From NCBI RefSeq assembly GCF_000214595.1, contig NZ_AFIG01000003.1:310001-374000 (forward strand): DNA of 64,000 bases, given 5' to 3'. Of the stretch, positions 14,464-38,968 are shown piece after piece. Within the stretch, counting starts at the first letter, position 1, and each line of letters begins with the position of its first letter. The position numbers and the translations under genes are program-made. Source of the stretch: Methylophaga thalassica MP. Lineage in GTDB: Bacteria > Pseudomonadota > Gammaproteobacteria > Nitrosococcales > Methylophagaceae. The notes under the pieces are model-generated. The model searched no databases and was not told the DNA's origin. It saw only the letters and a program-made list of their open reading frames with translations.

Positions 14464-16854
14464 TTAGTTATCTAGTGCACTCAATGCCGTGTCAATATCG
14501 GCCATTAAAGTACTATCATTATCTTGTGATGCTTGTTGCTTAGCCGTGTTCAGATATTGTCTGGCTAAATCATTATTGCCCTGTTTCGCATGTAAAACAC
14601 CGAGGTGATAATTAAATACCGCAACATTCGGCTCTAATGAAACCGCCTGTTCCAGCACGGGTTTTGCTTCATCGAGCTTATTCAGTTTTACATTGACCCA
14701 ACCATAACTATCCAGAAAATAAGGTTGTGTTGAAGACTTAAAGCGTTGGGTGATTTCCAACGCACGGTTCAAGTTTTCTGGCGACTCGAACCGATCGGTT
14801 AATAAGCTGGCTAAATTATTAGCAGCAATATCCACATTATTATTCTTTTTCAGAATTGCATCATACAAATTACGTGCTTCACCATAATTACCTCGCGACT
14901 CTTCAATAGAAGCCAGTTGTAGTGAAAAACGGATATTGTCATCTATATTATCAACCGCTTGTTTCAATACCTTTGCAGCGTCATTTAATTTGTCATTACG
15001 TAAGTAATAATCTGTTAAGAGCGAGTAACCCAGCGTCCAGTTTTTCTGTTCAGCAATTTTTTTCTCAAGAATACTGACAGCCTGTTCCGCTTTGTCGACC
15101 CTAAAGTAGTGAATAGCCAGAGTGGCATAACCATTCATCGAATTAGGGTATTTTTGGTTGAAATTGTTCAAATAACTTTCTAGTTGTTCATTTTCATCCA
15201 ATGCTTCCATACTGGTAGCCAGTCCCTGCATTGCACGACTTGAATTAGGTTCCAACTCAAGAGCAGCTTCATACTCGGCCTTGGCAAGCGCGTAGTCACC
15301 CTGCCCTTCGTATAACTGTCCAGATAATAAATGGGAAAGTAAGGTATCACCTTGCTGGTCTTTAAGAAGGTCAATGGTTTCAATGCCTGCTTTCCAGTCT
15401 TTCTTAAGAATTCTGACCTCTGTCAGTTGTTGCAGCAATGTAGCGTTGGTCGGATTTTTGTCTAAAGCCGTCACCAAAACTTGTTCAGCCTTATCGTAAT
15501 TACTTTCTTGAACCAACATACTCGATACTGTTAATGCAGCAGTTGCGTTATAAGGGTTGGCTGCTAAAGCTTGTCGGAAGCTGTCTTCTGCCAGAGCTTC
15601 AGAACCTTGTTTCTGATAGGCTTGTGCAAGTAATATCATAGCTTCATCAGAATCAGGCGAGTTTCTTAATACGGTTCTTAAATCCGTGACTGCCTGATCA
15701 TACTTTTGATCGATTAAGTCCAGTTTGGCTCTGACCAACAATGCACCACTTTCCTCAGGAGCAACATCAAGAACCGCCTGTGCTAATTCACGTGCCTTGT
15801 TGAAATCCTGTTTTGACGCATAGTAAGACGCTAACATCACCCGCGCCTTATTTCCGTTAATACCCTGTGGGTCTTCCTCAACAATACGGTTAAGTTCGCT
15901 GACAGAACCATCCACATCACCATTTTTATCTAACAAGGCCGCTTTAGCAAAACGCAAGTCATAGTTCTCGGGTGCGGCTTTAATCATCTCGTCCAGTTTA
16001 GTGAGTGCTTCTTGAGGATTTTTCTGATTAATTAGTCCCAGTAAAAATTGCTGAGCTTCAGCGTCATCAGGATGTATTTTCAGGAAAGACTGTAAGATGT
16101 TTAGCGCATCGTCATATCTATCCAACTGTGAGACTAAAAGTTTAGCGTAAGACAATACCACTTCGCGTTCATCAGGCTTTCGCTCTAAAATCTCTTCATA
16201 GACATTAGCCATACCCTTGTAGTCTTTCATTTCGTTATAAAGACTTAATTCGATTAATCGCAACGACAGATCTTCAGGATATTTTTCAACAGCCTCTTGA
16301 GCTTTTGCCAGTGCGGCAGGTAACTGGCCTTTGTCTTTCAGGATTAAAACTTCTAAAGACAGAATGTCTTTATGATCAGGATAATCTTTTGCTACTTCAG
16401 CAAGCAGTTTGGATGCTTCATCAAACTTCTGCTCCTTAGCCAGAATAGAGGCTTTGAGAATTCGACCATCAAAACTCTCAGGTTTTAAAGACAGCGCTTT
16501 GTCGGCTCTGGTCATCGCTTCATCAAGTTTACCGCCCAGCAGGTAGAGTCGTCCCAGTTTAATCTGAGCATCTACATGGTTGGGGTCCAGCTGTTCAACC
16601 GTGGTCAGATTAGCAAACATTTGCTTCCAGTTTTTGCTTTGCTCATCTAACAGGGCTAATCGATAGTAAGGTTCTGCTTGTCGGGGATCAATCTGAATAG
16701 CATTTTTATATTCTAACCGAGCTTTGTCATAATTCCCGTTATCAAAAAACTCGTTACCACTTTCAACATAATCCGCTGCACTATCAGCAGAACTTCCACA
16801 TCCCGCTGCCATCCCCAGCATCAATACCAGCAATAAACCTTTACTCGCTTTCAT
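14464..16854 (-). CDS. TPR-repeat lipoprotein of the exosortase system (PrsT-like)
   Basis: This is a predicted outer-membrane or periplasmic lipoprotein of 796 residues. The signal peptide ends in a lipobox (GMAAGC, Cys19). The remainder is a long chain of tetratricopeptide repeats, for example EYKNAIQIDPRQAEPYYRLA and NYHLGVLHAKQGNNDLARQYL. Long TPR lipoproteins of this kind (PrsT family) are known next to exosortase/PEP-CTERM and EPS loci, where they may scaffold export; their exact role is not established. An AAGGTAGGG sequence precedes the ATG at 16854. The gene follows the exosortase by nine bases. The PrsT label rests on architecture and position. Confidence 0.8.
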   Translation of the reverse strand: MKASKGLLLVLMLGMAAGCGSSADSAADYVESGNEFFDNGNYDKARLEYKNAIQIDPRQAEPYYRLALLDEQSKNWKQMFANLTTVEQLDPNHVDAQIKLGRLYLLGGKLDEAMTRADKALSLKPESFDGRILKASILAKEQKFDEASKLLAEVAKDYPDHKDILSLEVLILKDKGQLPAALAKAQEAVEKYPEDLSLRLIELSLYNEMKDYKGMANVYEEILERKPDEREVVLSYAKLLVSQLDRYDDALNILQSFLKIHPDDAEAQQFLLGLINQKNPQEALTKLDEMIKAAPENYDLRFAKAALLDKNGDVDGSVSELNRIVEEDPQGINGNKARVMLASYYASKQDFNKARELAQAVLDVAPEESGALLVRAKLDLIDQKYDQAVTDLRTVLRNSPDSDEAMILLAQAYQKQGSEALAEDSFRQALAANPYNATAALTVSSMLVQESNYDKAEQVLVTALDKNPTNATLLQQLTEVRILKKDWKAGIETIDLLKDQQGDTLLSHLLSGQLYEGQGDYALAKAEYEAALELEPNSSRAMQGLATSMEALDENEQLESYLNNFNQKYPNSMNGYATLAIHYFRVDKAEQAVSILEKKIAEQKNWTLGYSLLTDYYLRNDKLNDAAKVLKQAVDNIDDNIRFSLQLASIEESRGNYGEARNLYDAILKKNNNVDIAANNLASLLTDRFESPENLNRALEITQRFKSSTQPYFLDSYGWVNVKLNKLDEAKPVLEQAVSLEPNVAVFNYHLGVLHAKQGNNDLARQYLNTAKQQASQDNDSTLMADIDTALSALDN

Positions 16855-16863
16855 ATCCCTACC

Positions 16864-18393
16864 TTATTCCGCAATATATTGTTTTAACTTTGGCTCGGCG
16901 ACCTGCATAAACGACAATATTCGTTGTTCTGCCTGCGCCACTGTTTCATTGTCTGCCACCATGGTGACCATTCTCACCAATGAGCCATCAGTTCTGTTTT
17001 TAATGATTGAATCTTGTAATAAATACCACTTGTTAATGTATTCATTCGCGACAATACGACCATGCCCCTGGAACCAGTAATACACGAGTTGTTCTTGTGT
17101 GCCTTTTTTAATGATGACACGATTCGCGGGGTGGCCATTCGCTTCGATTCGGTCAAATGCAGCTATCTCCCAACCACCGCCAGGAATACATACGCGTGGT
17201 GAATGCGGTGACTCACCTTTACGTTGCGTTTCATAATAAGCCACATAAAAGTTGACTGTTTGTTTTTGCTTATTTTGATAGTTTGCTAATAAATAATCGG
17301 TCATGGCCAATTTGGACTCAACCCTGTCATCCAAAGGCATTTGATATCCTGTCCACTCCTCCAGTTGCATCGGAAAATTTACTAAGGCATTATGCTCTGG
17401 AATGATTTCCTGACGATTATCAATATAGTGTGTTACACCATAGCTGGATAAAAGAGTGAGAACAGTCAGAGAAAAAATTATCAGATTACCCGATGACGAA
17501 GCATTATTTTCATAAAATATTGGTTTGGTTTTATTATATTGCTCTACCCCGAAGACATCGGCAAACGAATAGCCCGTTGTCAGTTTTTCCATTAACCAAA
17601 TCAGCAATGCAAGTAGGCCAGCACAGGCCATGAAGATAATCCAGCCCTCAAAATCATGTAAAAAACCTTCTGCTTGGGCAATACCCCAGTTATCCACCAG
17701 CACACCAATTACACCAATTCGGAAACTATTCATCAAAATCGTAATAGGGATGGTTGCCAGAAAAACGACGGCTTTTTTCCAGAAGCTGGCACGGTAAAAA
17801 TAAGCTGCAATAAACCCAAGGCTCATCAATGGGAATAAGTAGCGCAAACCACTACAGGCCTCAACCACCTGAAGTTTGTAGACGCCAAGATCAATGATAT
17901 TCCCTTCCAGATAAACAGGAATATCAAACAGACGAATAACCTGAACACCTAACCAGGATGACACCAACTGCAATTTCGCCGTCAGCACGACCTCAATGAC
18001 GTATGGTAAAGGTATGGCAAATAACAGTAGCAAGATAGGAGCGAGTGTATATCGACTGGCTTTACCAAGAAAAATCATGGACAAGCCAACCAGAGTCAGA
18101 ACAAAGGAATATTGAATCAGAATAAATAAGGCGCTTAATTCTCCAAGTATGTATACGAGTAGTGAAAGAAGAATTAAAAAATAGCCACTCCACATGGGCC
18201 GAGAGACCGATGAGAGAATCAGATCTTTTTTCTCCCAAAGTATATACAGACTGACCAGTGGAATGAGGAAACCATGACTATACTCTTCCTGTGTATTCCA
18301 CCGCGTATATGCTTCAGCAATTCCCCCCCAATAGGTGATAAAAGCCAACACAAGCGTGACTATAAATACACTTGCTTTTTGATAGCTTAACAC
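16864..18393 (-). CDS. Exosortase fused to a C-terminal EpsI domain (XrtD-like)
   Basis: Exosortases are multi-pass membrane transpeptidases that recognise a C-terminal tripartite sorting signal. Here the first ~280 residues are hydrophobic with the expected catalytic set: Cys180 (VEACSGLRYLFP), Arg225 (MNSFRIGVIG) and His246 (GFLHDFEGW), numbered from the GTG start. The C-terminal ~200 residues are an EpsI-like domain with LEEWTGYQM and the SPRVCIPGGGWE motif (Cys402). I chose GTG at 18393 because AAGGAG lies eight bases upstream. An in-frame ATG at 18417 has no ribosome site but would be coupled to the upstream stop. The expected substrates are the two VPxPA-tailed proteins at 44.4-45.7 kb. 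The XrtD subfamily (VPLPA-specific, EpsI-fused) is recalled, not searched. Confidence 0.88.
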   Translation of the reverse strand: MLSYQKASVFIVTLVLAFITYWGGIAEAYTRWNTQEEYSHGFLIPLVSLYILWEKKDLILSSVSRPMWSGYFLILLSLLVYILGELSALFILIQYSFVLTLVGLSMIFLGKASRYTLAPILLLLFAIPLPYVIEVVLTAKLQLVSSWLGVQVIRLFDIPVYLEGNIIDLGVYKLQVVEACSGLRYLFPLMSLGFIAAYFYRASFWKKAVVFLATIPITILMNSFRIGVIGVLVDNWGIAQAEGFLHDFEGWIIFMACAGLLALLIWLMEKLTTGYSFADVFGVEQYNKTKPIFYENNASSSGNLIIFSLTVLTLLSSYGVTHYIDNRQEIIPEHNALVNFPMQLEEWTGYQMPLDDRVESKLAMTDYLLANYQNKQKQTVNFYVAYYETQRKGESPHSPRVCIPGGGWEIAAFDRIEANGHPANRVIIKKGTQEQLVYYWFQGHGRIVANEYINKWYLLQDSIIKNRTDGSLVRMVTMVADNETVAQAEQRILSFMQVAEPKLKQYIAE

Positions 18394-18425
18394 TGTGCCT
18401 GCTCCTTGCTGTTTCATGTAATGAA

Positions 18426-19547
18426 TTAGCCTGAGATTACCTTGAATCGTTTTAAAACACCAGCTAATGACATTAATCGTTTTATTTTCTGTTTGGGGTT
18501 CAAAACAATAAGCTCACAACCTGCCAAATTAAGCTTGCCCTGAAGTGTCAATAATCTCGCCATAAATGCACTATCAATATAGCTAACACCAGACAAATCG
18601 ATCTTTAATTGGGAGCGATTAGCTAACACCATGGTACTTATCAATGCATCTAATTTTTCAAGATTACTAGACTGAAAACAGCCGGCTAAAAATAAGGTGT
18701 ATGTGTTTGGCTGCCAGTTGACGGCATTATCCTGACTCACACCACGCTTATACTTTTTATCGACAAAATAATAGGGAAGTTGCTTTGTCAGTAATAACCA
18801 ACTCAAACTCCAGCCATCTTTTACATACCGTTTCCACAAGTTTGGCTCTTGTTTTATACGCCAAAGCCATTCCAGTCCGAATTTACGCCATTTCTCAGGC
18901 GCTCTGATAACTGAACCAGCCACGAAATTAATCACCGCCCCCAAATGGCTAATCACTGGCGCGTTTAGCTTATCCATATTATTCATAATCCAGGCCTGAC
19001 CTTTTTTGGCACCCAGCGCAACAAGCAAAAAATCAGGTTCTGCGTCATTAATTTTCTGGATAATATTGTCCTGACTCATTTCTTCAATACTGATAAACCC
19101 CGGATCATAAAAACCAACACTCACCATACCCGCGGAATCAATATTAAGTTGTTTATGTGCTTTTTCGGCAATACCGCTTTCACCACCGAAGAAAAAGACT
19201 TTAATCGGCTGCTCTCTCTTTTTTTCGGACAAAAACTGAAATAAATCTGAACCGGCTACTCGTTCTTTGACCGGTAATTTCATCATTTTAGCTAGCCAAA
19301 CTAAAGGCATGCCATCAATCACAGATAAATCACTGACAGCGACTGATTGATAAAATGCATCATCCTCATTCGCTGTTATGGTGAAATTAATATTTGGGGT
19401 AGAGAGAAAACAGCGTTTTTTTGATGAAACCGCCTGCTCAATTAGGCTTGCTGATTCAGCCATACTGACAAAGTCAAAAGGCAAGCCCATCAATACATGT
19501 TGTTTGTTTCGCTGATGGAGGTCAGGAAAAAAAGATGTGTTACTCAT
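18426..19547 (-). CDS. WecG/TagA/CpsF-family glycosyltransferase with a C-terminal STAS domain
   Basis: Residues ~15-260 are a GT26 glycosyltransferase of the WecG/TagA type, which adds a sugar to an undecaprenyl-linked intermediate at the inner membrane face. Visible motifs are STPNINF, VIDGMPLVW, GAKKGQAW and RAPEKWRKFGLEWLWR. Residues ~281-373 are a STAS domain like anti-sigma-factor antagonists (LKIDLSGVSYIDSAFMARLL), with the potential phospho-acceptor Ser326 in the IDS motif. The usual length of the transferase alone is about 245-265 residues, so this is a true fusion. The start ATG overlaps the stop of the DUF218 gene (ATGA). The STAS part could be a regulatory switch or a partner-docking module; no anti-sigma factor or kinase is nearby. 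Confidence 0.88.
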   Translation of the reverse strand: MSNTSFFPDLHQRNKQHVLMGLPFDFVSMAESASLIEQAVSSKKRCFLSTPNINFTITANEDDAFYQSVAVSDLSVIDGMPLVWLAKMMKLPVKERVAGSDLFQFLSEKKREQPIKVFFFGGESGIAEKAHKQLNIDSAGMVSVGFYDPGFISIEEMSQDNIIQKINDAEPDFLLVALGAKKGQAWIMNNMDKLNAPVISHLGAVINFVAGSVIRAPEKWRKFGLEWLWRIKQEPNLWKRYVKDGWSLSWLLLTKQLPYYFVDKKYKRGVSQDNAVNWQPNTYTLFLAGCFQSSNLEKLDALISTMVLANRSQLKIDLSGVSYIDSAFMARLLTLQGKLNLAGCELIVLNPKQKIKRLMSLAGVLKRFKVISG

Positions 19548-20263
19548 TTTATAGTCTCATCGCGAGGTAATCCCCACATTTCCTGGTGAGAGTTCCTGGC
19601 TGGTAAATCAAAACAACAATGAGCATAAATCCAGCCGATTAATTCAACCAGTACCGTTTTGGCTCCGGCACTGGTTTGCCACCAATATTGCAAAGTGAAG
19701 TCCTCAGGCACAGCACGGATAATACCAATAGGTATGGGCAAAGCATTAAAAGCCTGTTGATATAAAAACTGAGTTCTACGGCTGTGAACATCAGCAGAAA
19801 ATACATTAATGCCTATCACTTTATCTCCGACAATTGATGACTCAATAAATTTTCTCACCATAACGGCACTTAAATAGGTTCTATCCTGAGCAGAAGCTGG
19901 GGTGGCAACAACCTGTAACTTATTCTCGTCAAGCCCCAATAAGGCTAGCTGATATGCCGATTGTTCGGCATATGAATCGAACTGGTCGGTAAAATTTCTT
20001 GCTTCAGGGCCGCCGGTAGTAATGACCAAATCATAATGACCTGTTTTATATTCAGTGTAAGCCTGACTGAGTGCGGCTGGCTTGAGCCAGCCTTCTACCA
20101 CTAGAATATTAGCTTCAACTGGCTCTTGTTTCGCTAAAAAGAAGGCAACATTGTTTACAAGAAATACGCTTATGGTAAGCAATAACAATATAGTAATAAT
20201 TACTGTCCATGGCGTAGGAACAAGAATATATCGTCGTCTGAAAAACCGTCCCTGTTTTTGCAT
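19544..20263 (-). CDS. DUF218/YdcF-ElyC-like membrane protein
   Basis: This is a 239-residue protein with one N-terminal transmembrane helix (TPWTVIITILLLLTISVFL, about 17-37) followed by a DUF218 domain. The domain contains ILVVEGWLKP, DLVITTGGPEA and, further on, FSADVHSRRTQFLY. ElyC/YdcF proteins of this fold affect envelope-polymer metabolism, but their chemistry is not settled. The gene lies between a glycosyltransferase (its stop is one base before this start) and the WecG-STAS gene (four-base overlap), so it belongs to the same tight operon and probably acts in polysaccharide assembly. Function is not assigned. Confidence 0.8.
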   Translation of the reverse strand: MQKQGRFFRRRYILVPTPWTVIITILLLLTISVFLVNNVAFFLAKQEPVEANILVVEGWLKPAALSQAYTEYKTGHYDLVITTGGPEARNFTDQFDSYAEQSAYQLALLGLDENKLQVVATPASAQDRTYLSAVMVRKFIESSIVGDKVIGINVFSADVHSRRTQFLYQQAFNALPIPIGIIRAVPEDFTLQYWWQTSAGAKTVLVELIGWIYAHCCFDLPARNSHQEMWGLPRDETIK

Positions 20264-21505: not shown

Positions 21506-22429
21506 CTAGCCGTGAGATTGTTGCCAAACAACAGTTTGTTGTTCGTTTAACTGTCGGGTTGCTTCAGCTTTCCCTTTGACAAGACATTGCCATTGATAAT
21601 GACGAATAAACGCAACGAGAGGTTTGTCAGCAAAGCGTGGCTGACGGGTCAGCATGCTTTTCACATAGCCCCACCACATAGCAGCTCCCCCCAGAAAGTA
21701 TGGAGGATGCAACATACGGAAAACCGAGGAAGCGGTCATATAAATCAGCCCAGTTCCCATAAAATACTGACCAAAACCATGACGCATACGACCAGTAAAT
21801 ATCCCCTTCTGACTTGACCCCATAGGTCTAAGGTGGATGAATTGTAAATCAGGCTCATCCCAGCTCACCGCTATCCAGCCCAATTGACGGCACTTATGAC
21901 AGTCAATTCCATCCCACATCACCTGTCGAACAAAGCCACCAATTTCTTCAAAACAGCTTCGGCGATAAAACTTTGTCATGCCAACAGACATCTCATCACC
22001 ACATTTCTCACTTATAAGCTCACCAGATTTTTTATCTCTGAAATACGCTTTACCGCTGCATGTACCAATACGTGGATTTTGCTTCATGCGGTCAATCAAA
22101 ATCTCAAAATAACGTGGGGGTAAATCTAAATCCAAATCAAATTTACAGATAAAATCAAACTGACTGACATCCACCTGATCATAGCCATAATAAAAGGCTT
22201 CGATCACACCAGGCCCTACGCTACGGTGACCACGATTCTCACGTGTTATCACTTTGATGAAGGGATATTTCTCTGCGTAATCAGCCAAAATTTGTGGCGT
22301 CGCATCAGTAGAACCATCATCAACAATCACCCATAGATCAGGCTGAATAGTCTGATTCACAACACTATCCAGCGTTATCCGCATATAGTCAGATTCATTG
22401 CGACATGGTGAAACCAATAAATAGCTCAT
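21506..22429 (-). CDS. Glycosyltransferase family 2
   Basis: This is a GT-A fold inverting glycosyltransferase of 307 residues. It begins SYLLVSPCRNESDYMRITLDS, followed by DLWVIVDDGSTDATPQIL. The metal-binding region is FICKFDLDLDLPPRYFE (DLDLDL), a GT2 variant of DXD. The C-terminal part is amphipathic but has no clear multi-pass region. GAGAAGAAG precedes the ATG. It lies between the SMR-like gene and the GT4 gene in the same direction. The acceptor is unknown. Confidence 0.87.
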   Translation of the reverse strand: MSYLLVSPCRNESDYMRITLDSVVNQTIQPDLWVIVDDGSTDATPQILADYAEKYPFIKVITRENRGHRSVGPGVIEAFYYGYDQVDVSQFDFICKFDLDLDLPPRYFEILIDRMKQNPRIGTCSGKAYFRDKKSGELISEKCGDEMSVGMTKFYRRSCFEEIGGFVRQVMWDGIDCHKCRQLGWIAVSWDEPDLQFIHLRPMGSSQKGIFTGRMRHGFGQYFMGTGLIYMTASSVFRMLHPPYFLGGAAMWWGYVKSMLTRQPRFADKPLVAFIRHYQWQCLVKGKAEATRQLNEQQTVVWQQSHG

Positions 22430-22459
22430 AACTTCTTCTCTATAATCCGTTAAAGGGTT

Positions 22460-22819
22460 TTATCTTGCTAATAACACAACACCAGACACAATAAGCAATG
22501 TACCCGCAAGTTTTTGAATCGTTATCGGTTCTTGCAGAAAAAAATGTGCAAACAGCATCGTACCGATAAAGCCAAGACCAACAAATGGATAAGCACGACT
22601 TACATCGACTCGGGTCAGTACATACAACCAAAACACCATACTCATTCCATAACACGTCAAGCCTAAAACAACATACTTATTAATGACTATATTGATAAAG
22701 TCCCATGAAAGCCATTCTGCCGGAAGAGCTAAACGACTCATGCCAAATTTTAGAAATATCTGTGCTAAAACAGAGAGTAAGACGCTAGTTAAAATGGCTG
22801 AGATAGTAATGAATTGCAT
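22460..22819 (-). CDS. Four-helix SMR/EamA-like membrane protein
   Basis: This 119-residue protein has four predicted transmembrane helices, the size and layout of EmrE-type small multidrug-resistance proteins and of the ArnE/ArnF flippase subunits. Residues such as LAQIFLKFGMSRLALP and RVDVSRAYPFVGLGF fit that family. Its ATG overlaps the stop of the HAD-UbiA gene, so the two are translationally coupled. Given that partner, I infer a role in moving a prenyl-phosphate sugar across the membrane rather than drug efflux. This is not proven by sequence. Confidence 0.7.
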   Translation of the reverse strand: MQFITISAILTSVLLSVLAQIFLKFGMSRLALPAEWLSWDFINIVINKYVVLGLTCYGMSMVFWLYVLTRVDVSRAYPFVGLGFIGTMLFAHFFLQEPITIQKLAGTLLIVSGVVLLAR

Positions 22820-24249
22820 TAAAACTTCGCTAGTAATGTAATAAAGATAATAAAAGCGATAGTAACTACACTCCCCTTATCCTTAATTGAAAAAACGATA
22901 GGATCATCATGCATCTCAGCGCGATTTGTTTTTAACCACATACGACAAAGCCAATAAGCGAATGCTGGTAATGTTGCCCAAAGAAGAATTGGTGTTTGAT
23001 AAAAACCATCATGCAAAGATGTCTGTACATAAAAAGACATTATCAATAAGGAAACAAAAGCTGAAGTCACACCAAAAGATTGCATCAGATTGTAGTCATC
23101 AACATGATAATCTCTTCCAGATGTCTTTGTTTTGTTCATTTGTGATAATAATTTTAACTCTGCACACCGCTTGACTAAAGCTAAACTAAAAAAAGTAAAC
23201 ATAGAAAAAGCCAGTAACCAGAATGATAACTCGACATTAATTATCATCGTTCCGGCAATAATTCTGATAGTGAATAAACTGGCAAGTGAAATCACATCAG
23301 CAATCACATAATCTTTGAAATAAAAGGTATATGCTAAAGTTAAAAATAAGTAAGCCAACACAGCTATCTGGAAATTCAGTGGCGTCAACAATATCGACAA
23401 TATTACTACTAGAAAAAATAATGCAATAGCCGTGACTATTGCATTTTGCAAAGGCCAAGAACCAGACGGGATGGGGCGATTTTTTTTACGAGGATGCAGT
23501 CTATCGGCTTCTAAATCGCTCAAATCATTTAAAACATATGTCGCAGAAGCCAACAATGAGAACAATAAAAAACCAAGAATAGAATATCCGATAGATTGTA
23601 TGTCGAGATAGAGACCAGAAACAAGCAAAGGTACAAAAATTAAAAGATTTTTAAGCCACTGGTGGACACGAAGTCCTTTTAAAACAACTTTAACTGGATT
23701 TTTTTCAACTAACCAGACTCTGTCGACAGGCGTTACTTTATTTCGCGCAAGTGCCTTTGCCGTTGGATTAACCAGATATGACTGTTTAGCATGTTCAAAA
23801 ATTGTAAAATCTACCGCTTCATTACCTGCATATGCAAAGTCTGGAGAAATTTCACGACACTTTTCTAATTTGGCTATGCCTTTTAAATTTGATGACGCTG
23901 AAGTTGCTATAACCCCATCAAAAATTCCCATGTGTGTAGCAATCTGATCAGCATATTTAGCAATACTTGCTGTAGCAAGATACAGTATTCTGCCTTGACG
24001 CTTTTCTTCCTTCAAAAATGCTATAAATTCATCGTTATAGGGTAGTGACTCAATATTAAGATCAACATGAAGAGCAAGTTGAGACTTAAGGTAAGCTTTT
24101 CCGTGAAATAACCAAACCAGTAAATAAATAAAGCCTAATGGGTTTTGTTTTAGAAACTTTAAAGATGATTCAACAAGCAAGTCTGAAAAAATTAAAGTAC
24201 CATCCAAATCTACAAAAAGTGGCAATCGCTGATTATTTCCGTTTTTCAT
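22819..24249 (-). CDS. HAD phosphatase-UbiA prenyltransferase fusion
   Basis: Residues ~8-190 form a HAD hydrolase: the nucleophile motif is FVDLDGTLI (Asp14, Asp16), a Ser/Thr motif follows in YLATASIAKYA, and the acidic motif is AYAGNEAVD. Residues ~205-476 form a UbiA-superfamily membrane prenyltransferase with the first Asp motif NDLSDLEADRLHPRKKNRP and a second aspartate motif, YHVDDYN. The closest known chemistry for UbiA proteins of this layout is decaprenyl-phosphate phosphoribosyltransferase (Rv3806c type), which joins PRPP to a lipid phosphate. The HAD domain could then remove the 5-phosphate. That reading is inference; a quinone-pathway role is unlikely here in the EPS island. The SMR-like gene follows directly. 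Confidence 0.82.
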   Translation of the reverse strand: MKNGNNQRLPLFVDLDGTLIFSDLLVESSLKFLKQNPLGFIYLLVWLFHGKAYLKSQLALHVDLNIESLPYNDEFIAFLKEEKRQGRILYLATASIAKYADQIATHMGIFDGVIATSASSNLKGIAKLEKCREISPDFAYAGNEAVDFTIFEHAKQSYLVNPTAKALARNKVTPVDRVWLVEKNPVKVVLKGLRVHQWLKNLLIFVPLLVSGLYLDIQSIGYSILGFLLFSLLASATYVLNDLSDLEADRLHPRKKNRPIPSGSWPLQNAIVTAIALFFLVVILSILLTPLNFQIAVLAYLFLTLAYTFYFKDYVIADVISLASLFTIRIIAGTMIINVELSFWLLAFSMFTFFSLALVKRCAELKLLSQMNKTKTSGRDYHVDDYNLMQSFGVTSAFVSLLIMSFYVQTSLHDGFYQTPILLWATLPAFAYWLCRMWLKTNRAEMHDDPIVFSIKDKGSVVTIAFIIFITLLAKF

Positions 24250-24327
24250 ACCAATCCATTCATTGATTTACTCAATCTTATTTTTACATCTAAAATACTT
24301 TAAAAATATATAGCAACAGGAAGCCAA

Positions 24328-25557
24328 ATGAAGCAGGATACATTACTCACCAAACATCTAGTATACATTCTAATACTTGCCGCTATATTACGAATCGTAT
24401 GGATGTTATGGATACCTGTCGTACCAGTTTCTGACTCAGTAATGTACCATGAATTTGCTAAAAGCATCAGCGAAGGAAAAGGCTATGCCTACCCTGCAGG
24501 CAACCTAACGGCATACTGGCCTGTTGGCACTCCCGCGATTTATGGCAGTCTGTATGCGTTGTTTGGACAGCACTACGAAGTCATCGCCATATTCAACGTT
24601 TTTGTAGGAATATTAACAACGTTGTTCATCATCTTATTAGCACAACAATGGTTCTCAGCCAGAACAGCAGCCATCGCTGGTCTCATATACGCTCTCTGGC
24701 CATCACAAATACATTACACAACAATACTTGCGAGCGAACTACTCTTCAATCTTTTTATGATAATCGGACTATTTTGCTGGTACAGATTCCAAAACAAACC
24801 AGTATTATCAGTTTTGACTGCCACACTATTCTTCGTATGTGCAGCCTATGTTCGACCTATAGCTTTATTACTACCTTTCATTTTGCTCGCTCTGCACTTT
24901 CTGAATCATGCTGATTGGAAAAGGCTATTTACTTCATCTATGTTGGTGGCTATCACCATGGCAGTTCTCATTTCACCGTGGGCTGTTAGAAATTATCACC
25001 TGTTTGGGGAACCTGTTCTAATCTCAACTAATGGCGGACCAGTTTTATGGATGGGAAATAATCCGGCGTCAAGTGGCGAATACATGCCATTACCGGATAT
25101 TCATTTTGACTCTGAAGTTGAAAGAGCTAATTACTTTAAAGAAAAAGCACTTGAACACATCAAACAAGAACCTATGCTATTTCTTAAACGAGCCGGCAAG
25201 CGGTTTGTGGATTACTTCCGTTCAGAAAATATTGGTGTTAATTGGAATATAGAAGGTATAAAACAAAAAGGGGCTGAAAGTTTAGTCTTGCCCATGAAAC
25301 TTCTCAGTACCATCTATTGGCTTAGTTTGGTTGGCTTATCTGTATATGCGATCGGCAATCTAATCAAAAAGAATGGTTTCTGGCAGGCGTCCATCAGCAC
25401 GCCAATATTTGCTTTGCTGGGATACTTTATTGTTCTTCACATAATAATTGCGTCTGGCGATCGTTATCATTTTCCAATCATCCCTCTTATTGCTTTACTA
25501 TCAGCTACAAGTATTCAGGCTGCATATGAGAAACTCAAAGAGAGGAAACAGACTTAA
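24328..25557 (+). CDS. ArnT/GT39-type membrane glycosyltransferase
   Basis: This is a GT-C fold enzyme of 409 residues that uses a lipid-phosphate-linked sugar on the periplasmic side. It has about nine hydrophobic helices. Near the N-terminus the acidic loop PVSDSVMYHEFAKSISEGKG fits the catalytic aspartate region, and AYWPVGTPAIYG follows. The later STNGGPVLWMGNNPASSGEY segment is common in this family. AGGAA precedes the ATG at 24328. It is one of only two island genes on the plus strand: it is divergent from the HAD-UbiA gene (78-base gap) and tail-to-tail with the next GT2. It could use the lipid-linked pentose predicted for HAD-UbiA. Confidence 0.82.
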   Translation: MKQDTLLTKHLVYILILAAILRIVWMLWIPVVPVSDSVMYHEFAKSISEGKGYAYPAGNLTAYWPVGTPAIYGSLYALFGQHYEVIAIFNVFVGILTTLFIILLAQQWFSARTAAIAGLIYALWPSQIHYTTILASELLFNLFMIIGLFCWYRFQNKPVLSVLTATLFFVCAAYVRPIALLLPFILLALHFLNHADWKRLFTSSMLVAITMAVLISPWAVRNYHLFGEPVLISTNGGPVLWMGNNPASSGEYMPLPDIHFDSEVERANYFKEKALEHIKQEPMLFLKRAGKRFVDYFRSENIGVNWNIEGIKQKGAESLVLPMKLLSTIYWLSLVGLSVYAIGNLIKKNGFWQASISTPIFALLGYFIVLHIIIASGDRYHFPIIPLIALLSATSIQAAYEKLKERKQT

Positions 25558-25560
25558 GCG

Positions 25561-26550
25561 TTATTTATATTCAATTAATCGCTGCTTTTTACCTAATATG
25601 ACATTTCTGTAAAACATCATAATTCCTAGAGTTTGTGGCAATTTGGAAAACACGTTGGAGACAGAGGTTATCAGCGAATGATAAACACTACCTGACTTTA
25701 ATCGCTCTCGAAGTGTTAATCGTACAATTTGAATTAAATAAATAATTATTGCCAGAAAAAATAGGGGATTCCAGAATGATAAACAAAGAATTGTGAGTAA
25801 TAATACCGTCCAAAACATGTTGCTTCGGACTTCTTTTAAACGAAATTTTTCTTCAGTATGTCCATGAAGAAAATAAGACTCAGCATACGCATGCCCTGCC
25901 CGTTTATGCCGTTTCCACCATTGTGAGACTTTAGTCATAGCAGCGTCATGCAGTGTCATTTCGGCATCTAAACGCCTAATTTTCCACCCCTGCTGACGCA
26001 TGCGAAAACACATTTCTGGCTCTTCACCCGCGATCAAACTTTCACGGTAGCCATTCACTTGCAGGAATGCTTTTACGCGTATCAGGGCATCACCACCACA
26101 AGATTTTGTATCGCCGATAGGCGTATTCCACTCAATATCACAAAGTTTATTTAATACTGAAGCATCTGGGTAGCGTTCCCGGCGTCTCCCACAAGCAATC
26201 GCATAATCAACTGATTCTTTGAGAAAAACATAGGCTTGATCAAGCCAACCCGCTTGAACCTCACAGTCACCGTCGACAAACTGAATAAACTCAATTTGTG
26301 GGGTTAGCTTTAGTAAAGCTTTTGCCCCTTCATTACGGGCTCGTGCAGCGGTAAATGGAATAGTGAGGTCAAGATTAACTACATAAACGCCTAATGACTC
26401 GGCTAATTCGACACTAGAGTCTGTGGAACCAGAATCTACATAGATCACATATTTCAACTGCTCTCTAATTGATTCGAGACAAACTCTCAGGCGCTCGCCT
26501 TCATTTCGACCAATAACAACAGCACCTATTGAATTGTTATTCAAAATCAA
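25561..26550 (-). CDS. Glycosyltransferase family 2 with C-terminal membrane helices
   Basis: This is a GT-A glycosyltransferase of 329 residues. The N-terminus SIGAVVIGRNEGERLRVCLES leads to YVIYVDSGSTDSSVELA. The metal motif is FIQFVDGDCEVQAGWL (DGD), and the acceptor-side region has AGEEPEMCFRMRQQGW. A strongly hydrophobic stretch near residues 240-275 (LTILCLSFWNPLFFLAIII) suggests membrane anchoring. The start appears to be TTG at 26550, overlapping the stop of the upstream acetyltransferase gene. Sugar specificity is unknown. Confidence 0.87.
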   Translation of the reverse strand: MILNNNSIGAVVIGRNEGERLRVCLESIREQLKYVIYVDSGSTDSSVELAESLGVYVVNLDLTIPFTAARARNEGAKALLKLTPQIEFIQFVDGDCEVQAGWLDQAYVFLKESVDYAIACGRRRERYPDASVLNKLCDIEWNTPIGDTKSCGGDALIRVKAFLQVNGYRESLIAGEEPEMCFRMRQQGWKIRRLDAEMTLHDAAMTKVSQWWKRHKRAGHAYAESYFLHGHTEEKFRLKEVRSNMFWTVLLLTILCLSFWNPLFFLAIIIYLIQIVRLTLRERLKSGSVYHSLITSVSNVFSKLPQTLGIMMFYRNVILGKKQRLIEYK

Positions 26551-36471: not shown

Positions 36472-38826
36472 TTATTCCTTTAACTCAAAAGTTTGTTTTA
36501 CATTTATAGTCTTAGCATTAATGTAGTTAATGATATTGTCGACATTATAGTAAGATTCTGGATTGTTCTTAAGGTTATTCAACACTGAAAGTACATAAGA
36601 CTGATAATCTGAAAACCCTTGGCTTGCAACAAACATATCCAATAAATTTACATTATCAACTTTTGATAAGTAGATATTGTTACTTCCTGTTACATTCTCT
36701 GCTGAGTCAAGTACGGATGAATCTTTATCAATTCCAAGATTTACATAATTGTTATTTACAATTTGAGTATCTCTAGTATGACCAATTACCTTCAGACCAT
36801 ATGTATTAGTGAGCTCAGCAGCATTATCAGAAACAGTATTTCCGCATATCAGCCCTGACTGCCAATCATTTGCCTCAATATTAAATGCAATATTTCTATT
36901 AGTAGGTTGTGTGCGTCCAATATTTGATAACACATTGTTAGTTATCTGGATGTTATCCCATCGGTAACCATTATCGAAGTCAGTATTTCCACCAATAGAA
37001 AACCCAACTTCACCTTCAACTATTATATTTTTATTAAGCAAGATATTGTATGAATTTATGGCATCAATTTTCGTAGCAGAATCAGAGTTCGATGTAAATT
37101 TCATGCCAATGCTTGAGGATCGAGATGACAAATTCTTTTCGATGATCAAATTTGAGCTATTTTCGATATATACATTGTGATTGAAAAATGTGGCATAGCC
37201 ATAATCTTTTGTATTAATTGCAACATTTAAGGGTCTTTGTTGATACCAACCATTATGATCGAAAATATTTTCTTCTATTAAAGCCGAATTGATTTTACTG
37301 AGAAAAATCCCTTGAGAATGACTTTTAGTACTATATGAATTCAATATCTGGTTTCGTCTAATTACAATATTCTGATTTATAGCTCCGGTCATCGCACCAA
37401 GAACTACGGTACCTGCAAAGAAGTTAAAACGGTTATTTTCAAAATGCAGACCTTGAACAAACTTACCACTCACATTCGCAAATACAACTGGCGATTGTAA
37501 ATCACCTGTCCATCCTACAAAACTACTAGATTTAGGATCTCGCCCACTTGCGTAAAACTCAATGCCAACGACAGTAATGAAACTTCTATCCTTAATACCC
37601 TGCATTACGTCTGCCGTATATGAATCTATTATCGGCCTTTTTGTTCCTTTGTCACCATAAGCACCAAAAACAAGATGAGCTGCTTGTGATTTACCTGATT
37701 TCAACCAGATTTTGTTCTTCAGTTCAAATACATCACCTTTTTTAAATAATATCCAATCAGGCTTACCATCTCGTATCTGCTCGTATGCTTTTTCAATCGT
37801 TTTGTATGGTTGAATAGTTTTTGGATTGAATGGATTATCCAACTCAGCACTGAGATATGTTTTTGCAGTGCTATCATTTCCGTCCGTTGAGCTAACATAA
37901 ACTATTCTGGTTTCACTATCAGGAGTTATAATTGACCAACCATTGCTATCTTGTGGATAAGTTTGTATGGCCGCTCTCCATGGGGCATCTACTTCGCATT
38001 GAGGATAGTTACTGCTATCAACAACATCTGTGACAGTCTCAGCAACTGAGTCAGATTGATTATTATCGGAGGTAGCGTCGGTATCATTTAAAGTCAGTTT
38101 TTCTGACACACTGTTTCTAAAGTTCCTGGTTGATGATTTTTCTATCAGATTTTGACGTGTAGATTGTGTAGTTTCCGATGAAGCTTGACTACTACTTCCA
38201 CCACCACTATTGTTTCTGCTAAATCTATTATTGCTGGTACTTGAACTGGATGTTGTGCTTGCAGAGCGATCATCAGAATATCTATCGTTTGTTTGAGTAT
38301 TTGGAAATCTCAAAGATTCTGTTTCTTGTGTTCTCGCCAGAGTTACTGAATCACTACCATTACCACTTGAATACTCAGTTGCGCTTGGATTACCAGAAGG
38401 TATGGTTTCTATAACAGAAGATGGCACCCATGTTAAAGACTCCCCTTGACACTCCCCTTGAGTTAGGGAATTTGCTTTCATGACTTCTTTATTAAAATCC
38501 GAGAGCTTTTTATCTTCCCATGCTTGGTAGTTAGTCCATTGACGGCCTGTTTTTATAAGTATGAGATCACCATTACTGGCGTTGGCTAATAACTTGGCTT
38601 TTTCTATACTTTCAAAAGCTGCTACGTTATTAGCTTGGTACGGATTCCGTATATTGTTCAGTGTATAAGTTTTAGCCAGTTGATCACTACCATTATAAGG
38701 ATTGACGAAGATAATTCGTGATGACTCATTAAATTTGTTATTGGTTACGATACAGTCAGCAAAAAGTTGACCAGCTGTCAGGAACATGCCAAAAAACACT
38801 AAGAATAGTTTATATTTCATATACAT
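36472..38826 (-). CDS. Secreted parallel beta-helix protein with a Ser/Asn-rich linker
   Basis: This predicted periplasmic or extracellular protein has 784 residues. It has a signal peptide (KYKLFLVFFGMFLTAGQLFA, cleaved before DC). A short module at about 38-96 (IFVNPYNGSDQLAKTY) is repeated at about 306-368 (VYVSSTDGNDSTAKTY). The two are separated by a low-complexity Ser/Asn/Thr-rich linker at 145-265. The second copy leads into right-handed beta-helix repeats rich in IENN/IVIRRN-type strands to about 720. Such folds are found in polysaccharide lyases and epimerases; I cannot identify catalytic residues. I chose the ATG at 38826, which has GAGG eight bases upstream. Confidence 0.75.
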   Translation of the reverse strand: MYMKYKLFLVFFGMFLTAGQLFADCIVTNNKFNESSRIIFVNPYNGSDQLAKTYTLNNIRNPYQANNVAAFESIEKAKLLANASNGDLILIKTGRQWTNYQAWEDKKLSDFNKEVMKANSLTQGECQGESLTWVPSSVIETIPSGNPSATEYSSGNGSDSVTLARTQETESLRFPNTQTNDRYSDDRSASTTSSSSTSNNRFSRNNSGGGSSSQASSETTQSTRQNLIEKSSTRNFRNSVSEKLTLNDTDATSDNNQSDSVAETVTDVVDSSNYPQCEVDAPWRAAIQTYPQDSNGWSIITPDSETRIVYVSSTDGNDSTAKTYLSAELDNPFNPKTIQPYKTIEKAYEQIRDGKPDWILFKKGDVFELKNKIWLKSGKSQAAHLVFGAYGDKGTKRPIIDSYTADVMQGIKDRSFITVVGIEFYASGRDPKSSSFVGWTGDLQSPVVFANVSGKFVQGLHFENNRFNFFAGTVVLGAMTGAINQNIVIRRNQILNSYSTKSHSQGIFLSKINSALIEENIFDHNGWYQQRPLNVAINTKDYGYATFFNHNVYIENSSNLIIEKNLSSRSSSIGMKFTSNSDSATKIDAINSYNILLNKNIIVEGEVGFSIGGNTDFDNGYRWDNIQITNNVLSNIGRTQPTNRNIAFNIEANDWQSGLICGNTVSDNAAELTNTYGLKVIGHTRDTQIVNNNYVNLGIDKDSSVLDSAENVTGSNNIYLSKVDNVNLLDMFVASQGFSDYQSYVLSVLNNLKNNPESYYNVDNIINYINAKTINVKQTFELKE

Positions 38827-38968
38827 AACATGCACCTCAGGTAACAGATAATTCAAAAACTACTTTACCGCTATAATGCACGGAATACCAGCTTCCTTTA
38901 TGATGGAGTTCTCATTTAGATTAAAATATTAGTTGTGCAAAAGTATATCTTGGTTAATTCAGCAAAGA

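Follow-up and report, generated by a model that had tools for sequence, protein, structure and literature searches.

In C. youngae O1/O2, a polyprenyl phosphoribose synthase in which a HAD phosphatase is fused to a UbiA-type prenyltransferase was established by enzyme assay, mutants and nuclear magnetic resonance (PMC11127046, 2024). In the same work the GT-C glycosyltransferase of the system was shown, a four-helix EmrE/ArnE-like transporter (called MATE there) was proposed, the three-component pathway was called widespread and the flippase activity of such transporters was said to lack direct demonstration. No closer literature precedent was found among the matches listed. The present analysis concerns a locus of this kind in Methylophaga thalassica MP, located in a 64,000-nucleotide stretch of contig NZ_AFIG01000003.1 (positions 310,001 to 374,000; referred to as the window, with all coordinates counted from its first letter). 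The locus encodes a small multidrug resistance (SMR)-like protein, a HAD-UbiA fusion and a GT-C protein. It is likely, with a probability of roughly 0.8, that this strain-variable three-gene cassette decorates the exopolysaccharide (EPS) of the island in which it lies with a pentofuranose, most likely D-ribofuranose. Because the three-component pentofuranose pathway has already been published, the idea of such a cassette is not new, and the locus makes a convincing but ordinary further case of that pathway. The cassette and its parts are as follows:

22440–25557, no single strand: three-gene cassette, between two GT2 genes (21506–22429 and 25561–26550)
22460–22819, minus strand: SMR gene, 119 amino acids (aa); four-helix ArnE/ArnF-like lipid SMR (EamA), proposed flippase for polyprenyl-phosphoryl ribose
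22819–24249, minus strand: HAD-UbiA fusion gene, 476 aa; predicted polyprenyl-phosphate phosphoribosyltransferase and 5'-phosphatase
22825–23697, minus strand: UbiA domain of the fusion, residues about 185–475, with N241, D242, D245, D249, K255, R258, R361 and E364
23734–24225, minus strand: HAD phosphatase domain of the fusion, residues about 9–172, with D14, D16, T93, K127 and D147; SerB-type by Foldseek
24328–25557, plus strand: GT-C gene, 409 aa; membrane glycosyltransferase, proposed pentofuranosyltransferase

The three genes were confirmed at the positions given in an initial annotation of the window. All three frames are open, each product matches a Pfam family, and the genes lie side by side in the congeners G039 and G035 as well. 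The start of the SMR gene overlaps the stop of the fusion gene by one base (TAATG), and the GT-C gene is divergent from this pair.

Comparison with ORF15, ORF14 and ORF12 of C. youngae revealed the same parts in a glycan locus, namely a chain with an N-terminal HAD phosphatase (PRP) and a C-terminal UbiA domain, a four-helix transporter and a GT-C protein, and the active-site residues of ORF15 and the fusion match by motif order. The C. youngae genes belong to an ABC-transporter O-antigen locus, whereas the island in the window is of EPS type and encodes an exosortase as well as Wzx- and Wzy-like proteins, and the divergent 409-aa GT-C protein was set beside ORF12 (family GT136) by description. 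With mycobacterial Rv3806c the fusion shares the UbiA phosphoribosyltransferase chemistry, the best solved match being 8j8j. The mycobacterial pathway, in contrast, includes a separate, unrelated phosphatase (Rv3807c), arabinose formation via DprE1/E2 (DprE1 was not found here), Rv3789 as the proposed flippase and other GT-C enzymes (PMC11127046). Akin to ArnE/ArnF, the SMR protein is a small four-helix lipid SMR without an acidic residue in helix 1 and, akin to ArnT, the GT-C protein has a GT-C fold and a predicted polyprenyl-phosphoryl sugar donor. The differences are the single SMR gene beside the fusion, the different sugar and scores below the ArnE/ArnF cut-offs. The GtrA/GtrB/Gtr systems of serotype conversion follow the same three-component logic (lipid-sugar synthase, flippase, GT-C), but GtrB is a glycosyltransferase using a UDP-sugar and GtrA belongs to another Pfam family (PF04138).

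The fusion belongs to the one-chain HAD-UbiA synthases of the PRK08238/ORF15 kind, as it passed the cut-off of the curated model (NCBIfam PRK08238, 557 bits against a cut-off of 351, residues 4–475) and both folds are present in its predicted structure. The Pfam UbiA match had an E-value of 2.3e-22. Decaprenyl-phosphate phosphoribosyltransferase models gave 155, 150 and 109 bits, followed by a general prenyltransferase model with 58 bits, whereas the haem O synthase model reached 36.7 bits and ubiA_proteo (4-hydroxybenzoate octaprenyltransferase) 25.4. The closest solved structure by sequence was 8j8j, a mycobacterial phosphoribosyltransferase (7.5e-28), with 4od4, labelled 4-hydroxybenzoate octaprenyltransferase, at 0.013. 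The AlphaFold2 model of the fusion had a mean pLDDT of 94.1, and its Foldseek search returned 8j8j first (5.8e-10, TM-score 0.82 by target length), 8j8k second and then archaeal UbiA homologues, with SerB-type phosphatases (7qpl, 1l7o) for the HAD part. For the NCBIfam decaprenyl-phosphate phosphoribosyltransferase model, the fusion was the sole match in the genome, below the model cut-off, and one of 14 control genomes (Corynebacterium glutamicum) had a match, also below the cut-off. Judged by sequence and fold, the UbiA domain is of the Rv3806c (polyprenyl-phosphate phosphoribosyltransferase) type, neither of the quinone nor of the haem type. The grouping with quinone or haem enzymes that the initial annotation had named as contrary to its proposal was thus not observed, and the proposed attachment and dephosphorylation of phosphoribose by one chain gained support from homology, PRK08238 and the ORF15 precedent.

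The conservation of the catalytic residues was followed in an alignment of 120 full-length rows, the window included. In the HAD part, D14, D16, K127 and D147 were present in 120/120 rows and T93 in 117 (Ser in three). In the UbiA part, N241, D242, D245, D249, R258, Y307, K312, R329, K360 and R361 were found in all 120 rows, K255 in 119 and E364 in 118. In C. youngae ORF15, the N247A, D248A, D251A and D255A variants were without detectable activity in vitro and only slightly active in vivo, the product of D18A was mostly the 5-phosphate form alongside a dephosphorylated fraction, and R366A and E369A were still active (PMC11127046). Matched by motif order, D18, N247, D248, D251, D255, R366 and E369 of ORF15 correspond to D14, N241, D242, D245, D249, R361 and E364 of the window, and all of these residues are present in the fusion, each in at least 118 of the 120 rows. 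Because R366A and E369A stayed active, the equivalents R361 and E364 say little about function.

Of 57 genomes examined in the family, four had the fusion (E ≤ 1e-40) and three the GT-C protein (E ≤ 1e-10), these three being among the four with the fusion. The SMR protein occurred in five (E ≤ 1e-5), four of them with the fusion; the fifth SMR match (G038) begins at base 5 of a contig. Genome G054 of the same species is devoid of all three genes; there, homology of 94% extends to 22440 and, after 35 bases, starts again at 25557 with about 71% identity. The same empty site occurs in congener G037, where 27 bases separate the two parts. Other genes occupy the slot (window 22417–25560; compared in loci L187, L188, L189 and L190) in G036, where flanks 84% and 87% identical end at 22417 and 25560, and in G042, where the flanks are 76% (to 22417) and 68% (from 25840) identical. 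In both cases they encode an AMP-binding/carrier protein with a weak acyltransferase match, accompanied by a GT4 in G036. Since the cassette is missing as one block in relatives, the divergent GT-C gene belongs to it, and its interpretation as an unrelated neighbor was rejected because it is present or absent together with the fusion and the SMR gene. The synthase, the putative flippase and the GT-C enzyme are encoded together as in the three-component pentofuranose pathway, being adjacent, co-occurring and absent as a block. The slot between the GT2 genes seems to be an exchange site for EPS-modifying/glycan-decoration genes.

The SMR protein matched Pfam EamA (3.7e-11) and Multi_Drug_Res (9.1e-6). 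Lipid-type SMRs often have Asn in place of the central Glu (PMC9574504), and the window protein lacks the central acidic residue of drug/guanidinium exporters, with no Asp or Glu in its first helix. In an alignment of 22 rows, comprising the window and 21 of the other 22 loci with an SMR gene adjacent to the fusion (L125 excluded, the L141 row a fragment), S16 was present in 21 rows, the only columns with a majority of acidic residues were 72 and 97, and the L056 row had one Glu within the first helix. A function as a drug exporter was rejected on account of the ArnF-like score and the first helix without an acidic residue; the protein also failed the ArnE/ArnF equivalog test. Of the SMR-like flippase in the initial annotation, the four-helix ArnE/ArnF-like lipid SMR coupled to the fusion was upheld, while flipping itself is expected by homology.

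The GT-C protein matched Pfam PMT_2 (3.1e-7), and Foldseek of its predicted structure returned AglB, PglB, oligosaccharyltransferase subunits and ArnT (probability 1.00, E-values of 3.8e-4 to 3.1e-3, identity 12–17%). D36, E137, R379 and Y380 are invariant in 8/8 aligned homologues, and D36 is the conserved acidic residue after helix 1 that accompanies the GT-C fold. ORF12 of C. youngae requires D31, E34, H106 and R349 and largely requires Y350 (PMC11127046). D36 and R379-Y380 could equal D31 and R349-Y350, with E34 and H106 unmapped, which suggests a common site plan. No significant similarity was detected to the membrane protein beside the Erwinia typographi fusion (E-value of 0.10), and no match to that Erwinia locus was found among E. 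coli genomes. The description "ArnT-like" holds for the GT-C fold class seen in Foldseek, with no closer kinship to ArnT found.

The pathway proposed for the cassette is modeled on C. youngae O1/O2. In the cytoplasmic leaflet, the UbiA domain would transfer 5-phosphoribose from phosphoribosyl pyrophosphate to polyprenyl (undecaprenyl) phosphate, after which the 5'-phosphate would be stripped off by the HAD domain fused to it. Polyprenyl-phosphoryl ribose would be brought to the periplasmic leaflet by the SMR-like protein, and the divergent GT-C enzyme may transfer the ribose to the glycan as a side chain. The position of the cassette points to EPS as this glycan.

Several observations weigh against the addition of a pentofuranose in this way. 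The GT-C gene lies on the strand opposite to the fusion and SMR genes. The Pfam HAD match of the fusion (4e-5) is below the cut-off (24.5 against 27 bits), and HAD motif IV has N143, in a column with N in 77, D in 42 and G in one of the 120 rows; D is usual in this motif. The SMR protein scored below the NCBIfam cut-offs for ArnF (69.1 against 99) and ArnE (42.7 against 92). The AlphaFold2 model of the GT-C protein, built from eight sequences, was middling (mean pLDDT of 78.9), and a sequence search of solved structures with this protein gave no matches at E ≤ 1. To the right of the empty sites in G054 and G037 identity is just about 71%, which means that divergence or exchange has affected this side as well. 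Finally, an epimerase of another family may be encoded elsewhere in the genome.

To set the locus among its relatives, 138 loci with the fusion or its UbiA type were compared (55 genome stretches, 80 genome loci, two plasmids and the window), 80 of at least 575 confirmed relatives having been retained in one search. The neighborhood hidden Markov models (HMMs) were built from part of the same loci and used with author-set bit thresholds. DprE1 was encoded nearby in 77 loci and not in 61. An SMR gene lay directly beside the fusion in 23 of the 61 loci without DprE1 and in none of the 77 with it, and elsewhere in the stretch in seven of the 77, four of these being fusion-DprE1-DprE2-SMR operons. 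GtrA was found in 36/77 DprE1 loci versus 1/61 others, the latter match being weak (28 bits). When only the 84 full-length loci flanked on both sides by 5 kb or more were counted, the SMR gene was adjacent in 18/33 without DprE1 versus 0/51 with it. Some assignments are borderline: L072, counted as lacking DprE1, holds a DprE1 frame cut by the contig end (82 bits, below the threshold of 100); the 23 adjacent loci include weak SMR matches in L141, L169 and L170 (34, 21 and 33 bits) and a 35-bit match in a frame of about 305 aa in L125; L112 and L149, counted as not adjacent, contain lower-scoring SMR-like frames at a greater distance (26 and 17 bits). When assigned by Pfam families, the flippase family tends to follow the DprE1 state; GtrA-type transporters were grouped with SMR in PMC11127046. 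On a Burkholderia stagnalis plasmid (L174), the fusion is followed by FAD oxidoreductase and short-chain dehydrogenase/reductase (SDR) genes and, further on, by GtrA, an arabinose-type arrangement on a large plasmid.

A quick tree of 120 fusions was obtained, 18 of the 138 loci being excluded due to a match too short or weak, and 42 of its 117 inner forks were weakly supported. The window fell in a branch of 26 rows (SH-aLRT 94) comprising 17 fusion-SMR loci, nine loci with neither arrangement and no DprE1 loci, and of the five DprE1 loci in the neighboring branch four also had SMR. The remaining six fusion-SMR rows were placed elsewhere. At minimum, six switches between fusion-SMR and DprE1 loci are needed on this tree, weak in places, which makes a single inheritance of the pattern unlikely. 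On Vibrio alfacsensis plasmid pVa1 (L093, 8995–12252), a fusion 48% identical to that of the window and an EamA-type gene lie in an XrtA EPS cluster; they are followed by two short frames with hypothetical annotations, of which the first has no Pfam match.

In gamma- and betaproteobacteria the fusion-SMR pair is found repeatedly without nearby DprE1, and a GT-C gene often accompanies it. Fusion, SMR and GT-C genes run in one direction, with homologues of the window GT-C protein, in L048, L096, L101 and L103, of which L048 contributed to the GT-C HMM. The neighbor of the pair in other fusion-SMR loci often encodes a protein of seven to nine helices by a crude hydropathy count; its PMT_2 match exceeded the cut-off in L162 but stayed under it in L156, and several others had no Pfam family. 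Shorter membrane frames accompany the pair in L056 (with a sub-cut-off PMT_2 match) and L093, and no multi-helix gene was found directly behind it in L047, L065, L104 and L170. Genome G298 carries two different HAD-UbiA fusions (L047 and L050), only one of which has an SMR gene next to it.

The neighboring genes in the window are of polysaccharide type and encode GT2, GT4, a WecG-type transferase, exosortase XrtD and Wzx- and Wzy-like proteins, and the flanks also contain hexapeptide transferases, chain-length and export proteins and an initiating sugar transferase. The initial annotation had proposed a periplasmic sugar decoration inside an EPS island; the three components indeed lie among EPS genes, and EPS is the acceptor suggested by this position. 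Alternatively, the sugar could be passed to a protein (a pilin, or a surface protein handled by XrtD) or to lipopolysaccharide. A UbiA enzyme of this type was proposed for type IV pilin arabinosylation in Pseudomonas aeruginosa (PMC11127046), XrtD was identified in the island with 554 bits and the best Foldseek matches of the GT-C protein are oligosaccharyltransferases, though the general GT-C fold is all they share. Such an acceptor is nevertheless unlikely, as the cassette sits between EPS glycosyltransferases, its slot holds the AMP-binding/carrier protein and weak acyltransferase match in G036 and G042 and the GT4 in G036, and the closest non-congeneric fusion in the tree belongs to a Vibrio plasmid EPS cluster.

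As to the sugar, a DprE1 query from a genome of the same family gave no matches in the genome of the window at E ≤ 1e-3, which makes ribose likelier than arabinose, and ribofuranose is the expected, simplest and most likely product given the missing DprE1. The top DprE2-like match in this genome reached 37 bits and 28% identity, no epimerase was found among the scanned island genes, and a DprE1/E2 arabinose branch was accordingly not recognized. The same query was run at E ≤ 1e-10 in 25 hand-picked genomes of 52 with a match. DprE1 was found in 18; in nine of these it was already in the fetched stretch and in the other nine it lay away from the fusion. The seven genomes in which it was not found (G000, G039, G035, G268, G298, G086 and G146) are exactly those with the fusion-SMR pair and no nearby DprE1.

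These searches disfavor arabinose and bear on a second alternative, in which the ribose lipid made by the fusion is converted before flipping by a distant epimerase, so that the lipid-linked sugar is D-arabinofuranose (or xylofuranose). The 77 of 138 loci with DprE1 nearby fit this idea, 26 of 29 such loci in one table also having DprE2, and the SDR epimerase ORF13 gives xylofuranose (PMC11127046). The SMR type can accompany arabinose because the fusion-DprE1-DprE2-SMR operons exist (L037, L049, L117 and L131), and the nine tested genomes with DprE1 away from the fusion make a distant epimerase possible in principle. With no DprE1 match and such a low DprE2-like score in the genome of the window, no epimerase among the scanned island genes, and DprE1 matched nowhere in the seven fusion-SMR genomes but present in the other 18/18, this conversion is quite improbable, and ribofuranose is preferred. 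A third alternative, with the fusion serving quinone, haem or some other prenyl transfer and no joint function of the three genes, is barely credible: the fusion belongs to the UbiA superfamily by Pfam, but model scores and solved relatives strongly favor the phosphoribosyltransferase type, two further UbiA proteins of the genome score 229 and 200 bits on the general UbiA model versus 81 for the fusion, and the three genes are present together and missing together.

Further features of the island were also noted. XrtD (VPLPA-CTERM exosortase, 16864–18417) scored 554 bits against a cut-off of 400, and the adjoining PrsT-like TPR protein (14464–16854) 275 bits against a cut-off of 312, so an exosortase system and EPS genes occur in one island. 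A WecG/TagA-type glycosyltransferase with a C-terminal STAS domain is encoded at 18426–19547, a fusion which seems unusual for an EPS island. The frames 36472–38856 (794 aa) and 19544–20263 (239 aa) had no Pfam matches. A consensus scan detected 12 promoter-like sites versus a shuffle mean of 13.5, i.e., no excess, and five terminator-like sites versus 2.9 in shuffles.

It is tentatively considered, with some doubt, that the ribose branch forms a cassette type of its own, exchangeable and equipped with a separate flippase class (lipid SMR), and that the GT-C protein of the window represents a ribofuranosyltransferase family outside GT136. Arabinose-type DprE1/E2 loci would then often have GtrA or an SMR gene behind DprE2, and the class of flippase would tend to vary with the sugar. 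As direct demonstration of flippase activity is lacking (PMC11127046), a minimal synthase-SMR-GT-C cassette would be a good test bed for it. What the cassette adds to the published pathway is the EPS/exosortase setting, a presence/absence polymorphism within a species and a flippase family that tends to follow the DprE1 state. If the proposed function is true, a pathway proven in one O-antigen system would extend to EPS islands with exosortases. Genomes of one species that differ at the slot by a whole cassette are also provided. A comparative rule would follow as well, in which the fusion with an SMR gene and without DprE1 suggests ribose and predicts the sugar in uncharacterized loci.

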